Source of the DNA: Candidatus Neomarinimicrobiota bacterium
GTDB taxonomy: Bacteria > Fidelibacterota > SORT01
Direction: 5' to 3'
NCBI GenBank assembly: GCA_022567655.1
Contig: JADFGO010000004.1
Coordinates: forward strand, 1 to 50,438
DNA length: 50,438 nt
A program made the translations under genes and the position numbers. Positions 4,176-33,270 of this stretch are shown in pieces (positions within the stretch are counted from its first letter, which is position 1; each line of letters starts with the position of its first letter). Below the pieces are notes generated by a model. That model saw nothing but the letters and a program-made list of their open reading frames with translations. It made no database searches and was not told the DNA's origin.

Positions 4176-5321
4176 ATGATACTTATACACTTAATGACGT
4201 CGTTGATGCTATTGGCAATGTTGAGTTGTCCAGGTTCGATCAAGGTGACGAATATATCCACCATAAATAAGGATTCAGACTGGACACAGCTCGGGGGCAA
4301 TCCCGAACATAACGGCAAGGCATTTAACGAGGTGAAACCGCCGTTGACTCAGCTATGGAGATCCTCTGTGGATCACGCACCCAACGGGAATTTAACAGCG
4401 GCACAGGGCAAAATATTTGTAGCCACGATGGGAGGTAAAGTCGTCGCACTCGATCACGAAACAGGTATATCATTAGGGTCATTAAATTTGGAGAAATCTA
4501 TCGGGAAAGGAATTGCAATAGACGGCATACATGGCTACTTCGGAAGAGTGGGCGGTGACGAAACTTTATTCGGTTATGAACTCAGAAACGGAATTTACGT
4601 GTGGCAGAAAAAAATAGGTCCCGTAGAATCAATGCCCCTTGTTGTGGGAGAGCTTTTATATGTAACGACCGCTAACGGAGAGTTGTTTTGTCTCGACGCG
4701 GAAACAGGGACGGTAAAGTGGAGCTTTAAGAGCGGGAAGCCTTTTCATTCTACACCAACAAAGTCCGAGGGATTGATTTATGCGGCTAACGACTCCGGTT
4801 ATGTTTATGCGCTGTACGCTTCGAGCGGAAAATTGAAATGGAAATACTTAACGGCAGCGCCTGTATTCTCCTCACCGATTGTTCATGGCGCTGATCTCTT
4901 CACAGCTAATCTGTCCGGACGTATATATTCTCTTGATAAAATCACAGGCGAAATTAACTGGGAATTCAGCGGAGAGGGAAGTTTTTATTCCATGGCTTCG
5001 ATAGGCAATGACGCCTTATTTATAGCAAGCGGAAGCGGTATTCTCTATAAAATCGGCTTATCTCAAGGAAATTTAATCTGGGAGAGCGACTTATCAGCTC
5101 CGGTGAGTGAAGGATTACTCGTTTCAGGCAACTATATCTATGTGGGGTCACTAAATCATAATTTATATTGCTTGAGCGCCGAAACGGGTGAAATAGTCTG
5201 GCAGGAGAAACTTGACGGAAGAGTCAGAACCGCCCCCATCGAACACGCGGGAAAGATTTTTATCGGGGCTGAAGACAAATATGTTTACGCCTACTCAAAT
5301 TTGGTTCAAGTGGATGAATAA
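4176..5321 (+). CDS. PQQ-type beta-propeller protein (BamB-like), exported
   Basis: A 381-residue protein made of PQQ-like blades, with repeated 'G.ifvat..G.v.ALD..TG...W' units such as VVALDHETG, LFCLDAETGTVKW and LYCLSAETGEIVW. No PQQ-dehydrogenase active-site features are visible, so a structural or binding role like that of BamB is likelier than redox chemistry. The N-terminus is hydrophobic and ends in MLSC (Cys18), which could be a weak lipobox. The gene starts 4 bp after the Omp85 fusion and overlaps the next gene by 8 bp, so the three probably form one envelope operon. The exact start (ATG 4176 or 4194) is uncertain. Confidence 0.75.
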   Translation: MILIHLMTSLMLLAMLSCPGSIKVTNISTINKDSDWTQLGGNPEHNGKAFNEVKPPLTQLWRSSVDHAPNGNLTAAQGKIFVATMGGKVVALDHETGISLGSLNLEKSIGKGIAIDGIHGYFGRVGGDETLFGYELRNGIYVWQKKIGPVESMPLVVGELLYVTTANGELFCLDAETGTVKWSFKSGKPFHSTPTKSEGLIYAANDSGYVYALYASSGKLKWKYLTAAPVFSSPIVHGADLFTANLSGRIYSLDKITGEINWEFSGEGSFYSMASIGNDALFIASGSGILYKIGLSQGNLIWESDLSAPVSEGLLVSGNYIYVGSLNHNLYCLSAETGEIVWQEKLDGRVRTAPIEHAGKIFIGAEDKYVYAYSNLVQVDE

Positions 5322-20991: not shown

Positions 20992-21929
20992 ATATCCTCG
21001 TTACGGGCGGAGCGGGATTCATAGGGTCTCATATTGTGGATAAATATGTTGAACTCGGACATAACGTTGAGGTCATTGATGATATGTCAAAAGGAAAAGA
21101 AGTAAACAAGAGAGACGACGTTGTTTACCATGAAATGGACATCCGGTCTAAGGAAGTTTCGAGAATATTTGACAAGGGTAATTTTGACGTAATTAATCAT
21201 CATGCAGCGCAAATGGATATACGGAAATCGGTGGATAACCCGGCCGAGGACGCTGATATAAACATAATCGGGAGTCTGAACCTTATCAATAATTGCGTAA
21301 GAAAAGGAGTCAAGCAGATAATATTCGCTTCCACAGGCGGAGCGATATACGGAGAACAGTCTGAATATCCTGCACCGGAAGATCATGATACCAATCCGGT
21401 ATCACCTTACGGCGTTTCAAAACTATCGCTCGAAAAATACCTACACTATTTTAATGTCGAGTACGGTTTGAATTTCAACGTTCTCCGCTATTCAAATGTT
21501 TACGGTCCGCGCCAGAATCCCGATGGAGAGGCGGGGGTAATCGCCATATTTGCGTTGAAATTACTAAAAAATGAAGATGTAGTGATTAACGGTGACGGGA
21601 AACAAACCCGTGATTACACCTACATAGATGATATTGTGCGACTGAATGCAAAGGTTTTGGGCGCTGATGATAACTCAATTGTCAATGCGGGAAGAGGAGT
21701 TGAAATTGACGTCAATGAACTCTATGAGATTCTAAGCAAAAAGACCGATTCAACAAGGCATGCGACTCATGGTCCTGCAGTGTCCGGGGAACAGCGGCGA
21801 AGTAGTATTGCATCGGATAGGGCAGAGAGACTATATGGCTGGAAAGCCGAAATTGAAATTGAAGAGGGAATTGAAAGAACTGTCGAATTTTTCAAGCGAT
21901 ACATTAAGAACGGTGGTAACGCAAGATGA
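20988..21929 (+). CDS. NAD-dependent nucleotide-sugar epimerase/dehydratase (SDR, GalE-like)
   Basis: Extended short-chain dehydrogenase of 313 residues acting on a nucleotide sugar. The NAD-binding GGAGFIGSH (7-15), the catalytic Ser/Thr strand with STGGAIYGE (near 115) and YGVSK (Tyr about 141) are all present. Sequence is closest to UDP-glucose 4-epimerase-like proteins, but substrate cannot be read. ATGA overlaps join it to purD and to the sigma-54 regulator, so it is part of this operon. A role in surface polysaccharide or LPS precursors fits the lptE downstream. Confidence 0.85.
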   Translation: MNILVTGGAGFIGSHIVDKYVELGHNVEVIDDMSKGKEVNKRDDVVYHEMDIRSKEVSRIFDKGNFDVINHHAAQMDIRKSVDNPAEDADINIIGSLNLINNCVRKGVKQIIFASTGGAIYGEQSEYPAPEDHDTNPVSPYGVSKLSLEKYLHYFNVEYGLNFNVLRYSNVYGPRQNPDGEAGVIAIFALKLLKNEDVVINGDGKQTRDYTYIDDIVRLNAKVLGADDNSIVNAGRGVEIDVNELYEILSKKTDSTRHATHGPAVSGEQRRSSIASDRAERLYGWKAEIEIEEGIERTVEFFKRYIKNGGNAR

Positions 21930-23110
21930 AAAGCCTTCCTGAAACTAAGATCGAGCGTCTTCAGAAGAAGTACGGACTGATAGGAATTTCAGAAGAAATC
22001 AAGGACGTTGTCAGAACCATAGAGCAGGTGGGACCGACAGATATATCTGTGCTGATAGAAGGAGAGTCAGGCACCGGGAAAGAATTAGCCGCGAGGGCAT
22101 TACACGAGGAGAGTGGAAGATCTTCCAAACCGCTCGTTATCGTGAATGCAGGCGCCATTCCCGAAGGGCTGATTGAGAGTGAGCTCTTTGGTCACGAGAA
22201 AGGATCTTTTACAGGTGCTTATTCGGACCGGAAAGGATACTTTGAGGAAGCTGACGGCGGTACGATATTTCTCGATGAGATAGGTGAAATGCCGTTGAAC
22301 ACGCAGGTAAAATTATTGAGGGTTCTCGAACAAAAAGAGTTTCAGAGAGTCGGGAGCGCAAATACCCGGACTCTCAACGTTCGCATAATTGCGGCGACGA
22401 ATAGAAATCTGAAGGAGCTGGTCAGTGCAAACGAATTTCGCAGAGACTTATATTATAGGCTCAAATCAATAAGCATCATCATGCCGACGCTTAGAAAGAG
22501 AGTTGCCGACATTGAGATTCTCTCCCAAATATTCGCAAACGAAAGAGCACAAAGCCTCAATATCACTTTCGGCGGTTTCACTGACGATGCGATTCAGATG
22601 CTTGAATCTCACAACTGGCCGGGGAATGTGCGCGAGCTGAAGAATCTTATGGAAAGTCTGATAGTTCTTGAAAAGGGGAAAGTAATCACCGGCAAGGTTC
22701 TTAAAAAACACCTGTACGATCAGGAAGAAACGATTTCAACCGGTTCGACAAATTTACCCGTTCATTTGGAGAAAGACAGCGCCACAGCGGAACGGGAGAT
22801 GATAATCAGAACGTTATTTCTTTTAAGGAATGATATATCGGAAATGAAAGATATGCTCGCAAACCGTTTGATGCTTCAACCTCGCCGGGGAGGCTTGGAA
22901 TCAGAAAAGACTAATTATTCGGACGCGTTTGAAGAATCTGCTGTTGTAGTGAGTAACAAAGAGGTTGGAAACGTATCGATGCAGGATATGGAGAAGGAAC
23001 TGATTATATCCACTCTTGATAAATACAGAGGCAACAGGCGGATGTCTTCTGAATCTCTCGGCATAAGCGAACGCACATTATATAGGAAGATTAAAGAGTA
23101 TGACATTTAA
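21926..23110 (+). CDS. Sigma-54-dependent transcriptional activator without a receiver domain
   Basis: A 394-residue enhancer-binding protein that begins almost directly with the AAA+ domain: Walker A GESGTGKE (46-53), sigma-54 contact loop GSFTGA (93-98, canonical GAFTGA), Walker B TIFLDEIGEMP, and the arginine-containing NWPGNVRELKNLM region. A C-terminal Fis-type helix-turn-helix occupies about 355-394 (NRRMSSESLGISERTLYRK). No response-regulator, PAS or GAF input domain is present, so activity may be set by expression or by another protein. In Bacteroidota such a gene typically sits before lptE, as here. A possible target promoter is at 31569. Confidence 0.92.
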   Translation: MKSLPETKIERLQKKYGLIGISEEIKDVVRTIEQVGPTDISVLIEGESGTGKELAARALHEESGRSSKPLVIVNAGAIPEGLIESELFGHEKGSFTGAYSDRKGYFEEADGGTIFLDEIGEMPLNTQVKLLRVLEQKEFQRVGSANTRTLNVRIIAATNRNLKELVSANEFRRDLYYRLKSISIIMPTLRKRVADIEILSQIFANERAQSLNITFGGFTDDAIQMLESHNWPGNVRELKNLMESLIVLEKGKVITGKVLKKHLYDQEETISTGSTNLPVHLEKDSATAEREMIIRTLFLLRNDISEMKDMLANRLMLQPRRGGLESEKTNYSDAFEESAVVVSNKEVGNVSMQDMEKELIISTLDKYRGNRRMSSESLGISERTLYRKIKEYDI

Positions 23111-30717: not shown

Positions 30718-31380
30718 GTGATCAAGAAAGATAAATTGACTCGAACGACCGGCATAATACTTATGTTTTCGATATTGATGCAATCAACGGCGTGCGCGGT
30801 TCGCCCCCCGCTAAAAGATTCGGAATGGATCTACCTGGAAAAAGAAGAAAAAAGACCCTTTTTCGAAAACGTTCTTGAGGAATCGGATAAGCCTACGCTG
30901 CATCTCACCGTAACTTACATAGCTATAGGCGGTCTGGTAGCGTTTTTGGGGTTAGGCGTAGCATTTGATAAAAAAACAAATCCACTTTATTCCTGGTTGG
31001 CGTTTTTAAGTTCGGCAGGATTACTCTGGGGAGTGTCAGGCACGCTTATACAGAAAAATTATGATAAACAGCGCAAACGTATAGCAACTAGGGAATTAGC
31101 AATCCTTGACCACCCTGAATGGAGGGGTGACAAAGTTCGAGCTATCAGGAATGGAAGGATTGACGTTGGATTTGAAGACTTGATGGTGACCGCTGCATGG
31201 TCCGACCCGCAAATCGTCCGGTATAACGTTGAATTCAATGGTGAACTATTTGAGGAATGGACATATTTCATCAAGAAGAACACCAAAGTTTACATAAATA
31301 TTGACCGTAAAGTTGCCGTGATTCAAACACCTCAGATGACATACCAAAGAAGAGCTGCCGAGAGAGTCAAAGAAGAGTAG
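30718..31380 (+). CDS. Unrecognised lipoprotein with two membrane-like segments
   Basis: 220 residues from a GTG at 30718, preceded by TGAGG. A lipoprotein signal with Cys26 (QSTACAVRPP) is followed by two hydrophobic stretches (VTYIAIGGLVAFLGLGVAF and LYSWLAFLSSAGLLWGVSG) and a basic soluble tail that ends RRAAERVKEE. No family recognised. It is the last gene of the comEC string and is followed by 443 bases without a coding gene. The C-terminal domain (about 125-205) has beta-rich spacing. Confidence 0.65.
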   Translation: MIKKDKLTRTTGIILMFSILMQSTACAVRPPLKDSEWIYLEKEEKRPFFENVLEESDKPTLHLTVTYIAIGGLVAFLGLGVAFDKKTNPLYSWLAFLSSAGLLWGVSGTLIQKNYDKQRKRIATRELAILDHPEWRGDKVRAIRNGRIDVGFEDLMVTAAWSDPQIVRYNVEFNGELFEEWTYFIKKNTKVYINIDRKVAVIQTPQMTYQRRAAERVKEE

Positions 31381-31568: not shown

Positions 31569-31584
31569 TGGCATAATATATGCC
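31569..31584 (+). promoter_or_regulatory. Sigma-54-type (-24/-12) promoter candidate
   Basis: TGGCATAATATATGCC has GG at 31570-31571 and GC at 31582-31583, the 12-bp offset needed for sigma-54. Against TGGCACG-N4-TTGC, 8 of 11 defined bases match; the T after the usual TGGCA and the A before TGC are the main departures. The predicted start is about 31595, just before a closing stem at 31598. A sigma-54 activator is encoded at 21926 in this window. The element is also a GGCATA/TATGCC hairpin, so it may have another role. Confidence 0.45.
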
Positions 31585-31594
31585 TTAACAACGC

Positions 31595-31725
31595 ACAGAA
31601 TGCGAAGCCAGCTCATTCCTGGCAAGGGGGGAGCCAGGTTTTTAAGCGGAGATTAGCATTCCGGTCAAGTTATAAAAACTGGTTGCGGACGATTTAAATA
31701 TACACCCACAACCAGTTTTTTATTT
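31595..31725 (+). ncRNA. Candidate small structured RNA with terminator
   Basis: The gap 31381-31823 holds no plausible gene, but this part is strongly paired. A long-range stem GAATGC (31598-31603) with GCATTC (31656-31661) encloses two hairpins that cannot form together: GCCAG (31607-31611) with CTGGC (31619-31623), or CCTGGC (31618-31623) with GCCAGG (31633-31638), the latter followed by T5. A further 12-bp inverted repeat ends it (31674-31720). I could not match a known riboswitch. The 188 bases upstream of the sigma-54-like element (31381-31568) show nothing I can assign. Confidence 0.5.
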
Positions 31726-31726
31726 T
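31674..31726 (+). terminator. Intrinsic terminator
   Basis: A 12-bp perfect inverted repeat AAAAACTGGTTG (31674-31685) and CAACCAGTTTTT (31709-31720) with a 23-base loop, followed by TATTTT. The T run is partly inside the stem, so it may work in both directions. It ends the candidate RNA and lies just before the next promoter. Confidence 0.7.
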
Positions 31727-31753
31727 GAATATTCAGTGCGATCCGGTTATTAT
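31725..31753 (+). promoter_or_regulatory. Candidate promoter for the cNMP-binding gene
   Basis: TTGAAT (31725-31730), 17 bp, TATTAT (31748-31753), starting right at the end of the terminator. The predicted start is near 31760, leaving a leader of roughly 64 bases before the ATG at 31824. The -10 is one base from the sigma-70 consensus. Confidence 0.5.
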
Positions 31754-31823: not shown

Positions 31824-32204
31824 ATGACGACAGGTATTGAAAAAGATTTTCAAGAAGGTGAGGTAATTTGCAATGAGGGAGACGCCGGGGACTATATCTA
31901 TATTCTCAAAAAAGGGAAATTAGGAGTATATAAGGATGAAAATTTAGTCTCAGAATACGAAAAACCGGGTACTATTCTTGGAGAAATGTCCATTATTCTC
32001 GGTGAGGAAAGAACCGCAACCATCAAAGCGTTATCACCATCAACAGTATCCGTCATTCGAATCACTCTGAGGGATTTGGTAAGGAATTTCCCCGCGTTTA
32101 CGGTAAAAATATTAGAAGTACTCGCAAGCCGGCTAAAAGATACAACTGATGTTTTGACGGACACCCTTGTGGAGCATAACATTGAAGATGAAGACGTTCA
32201 GTGA
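31824..32204 (+). CDS. Stand-alone cyclic-nucleotide-binding domain protein
   Basis: 126 residues, a single CNMP/Crp-type beta-roll: FQEGEVICNEGDAGDYIYILKK-type opening, and the phosphate-binding cassette GEMSIILGEERTATIKA (about 54-70) with its Arg. No helix-turn-helix follows, so it is not a Crp/Fnr regulator by itself and must act through a partner, or by sequestering a ligand. Whether it binds cAMP, cGMP or nothing cannot be told. It has its own promoter, and the next promoter lies inside its 3' end. Confidence 0.8.
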   Translation: MTTGIEKDFQEGEVICNEGDAGDYIYILKKGKLGVYKDENLVSEYEKPGTILGEMSIILGEERTATIKALSPSTVSVIRITLRDLVRNFPAFTVKILEVLASRLKDTTDVLTDTLVEHNIEDEDVQ

Positions 32205-32280: not shown

Positions 32281-33270
32281 ATGCCTGAAATAGACCCGAT
32301 TCATTATGAAAAACAACTCTGGTCAAAAGGAATTAATAAAATTGCAGGTGTGGACGAAGCAGGCAGAGGTCCGTTAGCGGGTCCTGTTGTAGCCGCTGCG
32401 GTTATATTAGACAAGGACAATATACCGGAAGGAATTGATGACTCAAAGAAATTGCGTCCCGCCGTTAGAGAAGAACTCTATGAAATCATTACTGCAAAGT
32501 GCGTTAGATTCGGCGTAGGAACGGTTTGGCAGGAAGAAATCGATAAAACCGATATTTTAAAATCTACTCACAAGGCCATGAGAAAAGCTATCGGAAACCT
32601 GGGAACCACGCCCGATCATATATTAGTTGACGGAAGAGGATTGCCGGGTAAAATTTTCCCACAAACAGCAATAATAAACGGGGATTCGCTCTCAACCTCA
32701 ATCGGCGCCGCTTCAATAATTGCTAAAGTGACGCGCGATGGCATCATGCGTGAAATATCAAAAATATATCCCGAATACGGGTTCGAAATTCATAAAGGAT
32801 ACGGAACAGAAAAGCATATAAAATCCATAAACCAATTAGGACCATCTCCGGTCCACCGAAAGAGTTTCCGAAGAGTTAAAGAGATAGAAGTGAAATTAGA
32901 TCTCACTAACCAAAAAAAGGTAGGGGAGCATGGAGAACGTATAGCATCGCTTGAACTGATAAAGAGGGGTTACACGGTAATAGAAAGAAACTACTGGGCT
33001 GGAAAAAGGGAGAGTGAGATAGATATAATCGCATCAAAAGAGAACACACTTGTATTTGTAGAGGTTAAAACTAAATTACATCAAAATTTCGGCGAACCGG
33101 AGGAGTGGATATCCGAAAAAAAGAGGGAACAATTGATAAGAGCTGCCGAAGCATACATACAAGAAAAAAAACCTGATGCGGAAGAATACAGGTTCGACGC
33201 TATGGCTGTAGACATTGAACCTGAAATACCGACAGTGCATCATATCATCAATGCTTTTCAAAAAAAGTAG
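32281..33270 (+). CDS. rnhB: Ribonuclease HII fused to a YraN (UPF0102) nuclease-like domain
   Basis: 329 residues. Residues 17-198 are RNase HII, which cuts RNA in RNA-DNA hybrids and at single misincorporated ribonucleotides: GVDEAGRGPLAGPV (D25, E26), ILVDG (D117) and KVTRD (D153) supply the acidic residues. Residues about 212-325 form a YraN domain with ERNYW, SEIDIIA (E246, D248) and VFVEVKTK (E261, K263), the restriction-like core. In most bacteria rnhB and yraN are neighbours; here a short basic linker (VKEIEVKLDLTNQKKVGEHG) joins them in one frame with no stop. The gene overlaps ggt by 20 bp. Confidence 0.9.
   Translation: MPEIDPIHYEKQLWSKGINKIAGVDEAGRGPLAGPVVAAAVILDKDNIPEGIDDSKKLRPAVREELYEIITAKCVRFGVGTVWQEEIDKTDILKSTHKAMRKAIGNLGTTPDHILVDGRGLPGKIFPQTAIINGDSLSTSIGAASIIAKVTRDGIMREISKIYPEYGFEIHKGYGTEKHIKSINQLGPSPVHRKSFRRVKEIEVKLDLTNQKKVGEHGERIASLELIKRGYTVIERNYWAGKRESEIDIIASKENTLVFVEVKTKLHQNFGEPEEWISEKKREQLIRAAEAYIQEKKPDAEEYRFDAMAVDIEPEIPTVHHIINAFQKK

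Follow-up and report, generated by a model that had tools for sequence, protein, structure and literature searches.

A predicted sigma-54-dependent small RNA with a conserved G-rich hairpin loop in one family of the Fidelibacterota

Small RNAs (sRNAs) driven by sigma-54 are already known as a kind, and the Qrr sRNAs of vibrios are Hfq-dependent. In Vibrio, Qrr (sigma-54, LuxO) represents a short non-coding RNA with a sigma-54 promoter that needs an enhancer-binding protein (PMC10162802, PMC8043402). Further examples are GlmY of enterobacteria, whose sigma-54 promoter is used with the activator QseF (PMC6075780) and which, like GlmZ, acts through RapZ and glmS (PMC7073468), and NrsZ and CrcZ of Pseudomonas, two RpoN-dependent intergenic sRNAs of 226 and 407 nt, the latter being a decoy for Hfq (PMC8395346). 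In the literature searched, no regulatory sRNA, including sigma-54 sRNAs, was found for the uncultured marine phylum Fidelibacterota (Candidatus Marinimicrobia / Neomarinimicrobiota). The current study concerns a locus of this phylum on contig C4 of a genome that is 96.6% complete (G000); the term window denotes the whole stretch of 50,438 nucleotides that was analysed.

The locus resembles the established systems in outline. It shares with Qrr a short non-coding RNA behind a sigma-54 promoter (here a predicted one), with GlmY/GlmZ the sigma-54 promoter and a stem-loop RNA (again predicted), and with NrsZ/CrcZ the intergenic position and the predicted dependence on RpoN. It differs in that the family genomes lack the Hfq on which Qrr depends and which CrcZ sequesters, the predicted RNA has about 130 nt versus 226 and 407 nt, no LuxO-type link was seen, and neither RapZ nor glmS is linked to the locus. 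Rfam searches at gathering and relaxed thresholds returned no match for the element, including sequence similarity to Qrr, and no riboswitch match for its hairpin. With respect to those of the Qrr, GlmY/GlmZ and CrcZ/NrsZ families that have an Rfam model, no match reached the gathering score or a meaningful E-value, and membership is not indicated. The element would represent a new, previously uncatalogued RNA family of a known kind. The original prediction of a sigma-54-dependent non-coding RNA stands as the best reading, on the grounds of GG/GC spacing, hairpin, promoter-hairpin distance and synteny in three relatives and of the presence of RpoN, and we consider it probable that the locus is a free-standing, lineage-restricted gene for a trans-acting sRNA whose G-rich loop is active.

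The putative sigma-54 promoter occupies positions 31569..31583 (TGGCATAATATATGC; this and all other features of the locus lie on the + strand), with GG at 31570-31571, GC at 31582-31583 and a predicted +1 at about 31595. The -24/-12 element is present as originally read, and in the three relatives, where the promoter between the same two genes reads TGGCAYNATATRTGC (individual versions TGGCATCATATGTGC, TGGCATCATATATGC and TGGCACTATATATGC), the GG-N10-GC spacing is retained at the correct distance before the RNA, as befits a sigma-54-dependent sRNA. Taken by itself, the match is not significant and no more than chance, the 15-mer pattern TGGCAYN6TGC occurring once in the window versus 0.46 expected. 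The -12 part of the sites reads ATGC or GTGC instead of TTGC, which counts against the preferred explanation, and no conserved upstream enhancer site stood out in the intergenic alignment of the four genomes. Since promoter match and fold z-score make a weak case by themselves, conservation decides, and the joint conservation of promoter and hairpin in four genomes exceeds chance.

The predicted sRNA of about 130 nt extends over 31595..31726, its start being taken from the promoter and its end from the terminator. For the 132-nt strand, the predicted folding energy is -39 kcal/mol (z = -3.43), which none of 200 shuffles equalled; the RNAs of G004 and G002 reach z-scores of about -4.2, and that of G001 is not exceptional (-0.81). 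The predicted transcript length is 125-134 nt in all four genomes. The claimed lack of coding content was borne out by the absence of a reading frame conserved across the relatives, the loop length varying by one base among them; conserved RNA structure without a conserved reading frame is the pattern of an sRNA, with the small number of sequences making this modest support. The 12-bp inverted repeat expected at the end of the paired region was likewise recovered as an intrinsic terminator (31674..31726) with a 12-bp stem (arms AAAAACTGGTTG, 31674-31685, and CAACCAGTTTTT, 31709-31720), a 23-nt loop and a T-tract (TTATTTT) that ends near 31726; strong equivalents are found in G002 and G004 and a weak one in G001. 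The closed stem proposed from 31598 onward fared less well: this outer stem (31598..31661; GAAUGC 31598-31603 / GCAUUC 31656-31661) is predicted in the window sequence with a pair probability of about 0.95, but it is not conserved in G001 or G002 and its status is uncertain, the stem common to all relatives being that of 31618-31638.

This conserved hairpin, CCUGGC-AAGGGGGGA-GCCAGG (31618..31638), combines a stem of six pairs (31618-31623/31633-31638) with a G-rich loop (31624-31632). It reads CCGGGU-[CU]AGGGGG..-[GA]CCCGG in the relatives, and the consensus of the four genomes is CC[G/U]GG[C/U]-loop-[G/A]CC[C/A]GG with AGGGGG inside the loop. All six pairs are retained in all four genomes; two of them vary (G-C to U-A, and U-G/C-G/U-A), one being changed on both sides. 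The covariation is weak, with a score reached by 94 of 500 shuffles, because only four sequences are available, two of them from one genus. In every genome, the first base of the hairpin falls at +21 to +25, i.e., at a nearly constant distance from the promoter. Between genera, conservation within the RNA is limited to this hairpin and the terminator, and the AGGGGG loop is therefore taken as the working part.

In the window, a gap of 443 bases separates a lipoprotein-like open reading frame (30718..31380; no Pfam family) from the gene of a stand-alone cyclic-nucleotide-binding-domain (cNMP) protein (31824..32204; PF00027, 5.7e-17), both of which are syntenic neighbours of the RNA. Orthologous loci were located via the neighbouring rnhB and cNMP proteins in three of the other four family genomes (G001, G002 and G004); in the fourth, G003 (69% complete), neither orthologue was seen. 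Arrangement and gene order are shared by the four genomes with the locus, which represent three genera, and the cNMP gene, with orthologues that are 66-76% identical, adjoins the RNA in each of them. When the whole intergenic region is aligned (476 columns), the two best-conserved 15-column blocks are the promoter and the hairpin, with 11 (as aligned) and 10 invariant columns, respectively, compared with an average of 27% of the gap-free columns; the 34 nt in between are nearly random, with only about 30% identity between genera. Loss of both GG/GC spacing and pairing in relatives had been named as the outcome that would speak against the prediction, and neither was lost in the three relatives.

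The joint pattern of promoter, 25 to 55 nt and CCNGGNNAGGGGG was found at exactly four loci in 245 genomes of the phylum, i.e., it is absent from the 241 others, and the reversed-pattern control gave zero throughout. A covariance model (R2) recovered the four loci, its own training sequences, with E-values of 1.8e-13 to 2.8e-16 and had no other match below E 0.17 in 120 genomes; a second match within the window's own genome (L074) was dismissed as a chance match. Beyond the four known loci, copies of the G-loop hairpin occurred no more often than at the control rate. A BLASTN search of 40 relatives with the whole element recovered the window alone, promoter and hairpin being too short for it, and it was synteny that located the relatives. 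Judged from these searches, the element appears to be single-copy and confined to one family as far as seen.

RpoN, the prerequisite of a sigma-54-dependent sRNA, is encoded in all five family genomes (PF04552, 4.0e-54 in G000), and canonical TGGCAY-N5-TTGC sites number 69 versus 22 in the reversed control. Several of these shortly precede genes that look flagellar by eye, e.g., FlgG-like L122, FliJ-like L123/L132 and FlgD-like L127/L128, which suggests that flagellar genes may be under sigma-54 control in this family. The original prediction had cited a sigma-54 activator without input domain in the window as support, which did not hold: this activator (21926-23110), which adjoins lptE, is one of about seven strong ones in G000 (E below 1e-60), and nothing singles it out. 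Its position about 9-10 kb upstream of the RNA is shared by all four genomes, but since the other genes of the stretch keep their distance as well, this reflects synteny and is no evidence of a regulatory link. Hfq (PF17209) was not detected in any of the five family genomes, with the control search positive in 5 of 14, and the Hfq that a base-pairing sRNA of the Hfq-dependent class presupposes is accordingly missing.

The other readings differ in what promoter and folded stretch are for. The sigma-54 promoter could serve the cNMP gene, with the folded stretch as 5' leader, the terminator as attenuator and the hairpin sensing a signal that permits some read-through. The cNMP gene indeed lies on the same strand and begins about 100 nt past the terminator in all four genomes, and the terminator of G001 is weak; three of the four terminators are nevertheless strong, no conserved antiterminator partner was seen, and a sensory hairpin has no riboswitch counterpart in Rfam. 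Furthermore, a separate promoter for the cNMP gene is probable in the window and in G001, since a sigma-70-type sequence follows the terminator in the window (31725..31753; TTGAAT-17-TATTAT) and has a counterpart in G001 that matches it in position and spacing (TTGACT-17-TATTAT), although the scan found none in G002 and G004. On balance, a leader of the cNMP gene is an unlikely function of the stretch.

Less likely still is that the promoter-like sequence is a dyad recognised by a regulator (repressor or activator) of some other promoter, with hairpin and inverted repeat as 3' end and terminator of the upstream lipoprotein operon. In its favour, GGCAT-N5-ATGCC forms a perfect dyad in the window, and the four genomes also agree in the spacer bases ATAT, four positions that are dispensable for sigma-54. 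In G004, however, the symmetry is disrupted (GGCAT/GTGCA), and in G002 and G001 it is incomplete, and yet TGGCA and TGC stay at their 12-bp spacing; the nearly constant site-to-hairpin distance, RpoN and the other canonical sites argue in the same direction. The loop has also to be considered as a CsrA decoy, as in RsmY/RsmZ, in view of a GGA within the hairpin loop and two more GGA motifs in the window copy. These additional motifs are not common to the relatives, and CsrA (PF02599) was not found in G000, G002 and G004 by a search that was positive in E. coli, B. subtilis and Thermotoga maritima. The CsrA that sRNAs of the decoy class (RsmY/Z, CsrB) presuppose was seen among the five family genomes solely in G001 (G001:C5:57326-57478), and its absence from the nearly complete genome of the window contradicts this reading, to which we give hardly any credence.

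In the preferred reading of a trans-acting sRNA, an enhancer-binding protein would activate sigma-54 RNA polymerase, which would start at about 31595 and end at the terminator near 31726, yielding a transcript of about 130 nt. The hairpin at +24 to +44 would most likely be the working part, with the AGGGGG(R)A loop offered for pairing with C-rich mRNA or for protein binding, and the RNA would act without Hfq. What was established computationally is that promoter, hairpin, spacing and synteny are conserved and that RpoN is present; from this we infer transcription, action in trans and the role of the loop as seed. A narrower version, in which a family-specific sigma-54 sRNA regulates mRNAs via a single G-rich kissing loop with neither Hfq nor CsrA, but perhaps with the help of a different RNA-binding protein, e.g., an RRM-domain-like one, is speculative and rather improbable. 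At L134 (G003:C23, site at 4795), a canonical sigma-54 site precedes, by 47 nt, a short protein that resembles the RRM type by eye; with Hfq missing from these genomes, this protein is a possible sRNA partner. An sRNA gene that is defined, conserved and single-copy, together with its promoter, would provide an entry point to RNA regulation and to the sigma-54 regulon in the phylum.

A search of the family genomes for TTCCCCCT upstream of ATG, with the contexts of 100 loci in four genomes, revealed no convincing conserved target or 5'-UTR site. The sole orthologous group with a common site (L188, L216 and L272) carries it about 38-46 codons inside the open frame and was rejected as a target: the site lies within a conserved Gly-Ser-Pro-Trp-His stretch of a TRAP-transporter substrate-binding-like protein, so that coding constraint explains the sharing.

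Two further observations concern the genomes as such. About 2 kb of G001 (L184; G001:C42:4300-6300) and G002 (L185; G002:C68:11900-13900) are 99.8% identical, although the two belong to different genera and are much more divergent in their other orthologous proteins; either one assembly is contaminated or a mobile stretch was recently shared. In the window, RNase HII and a UPF0102 (YraN-like) domain are joined in a single reading frame at 32281-33270, and the matching protein of the relatives is of similar length.
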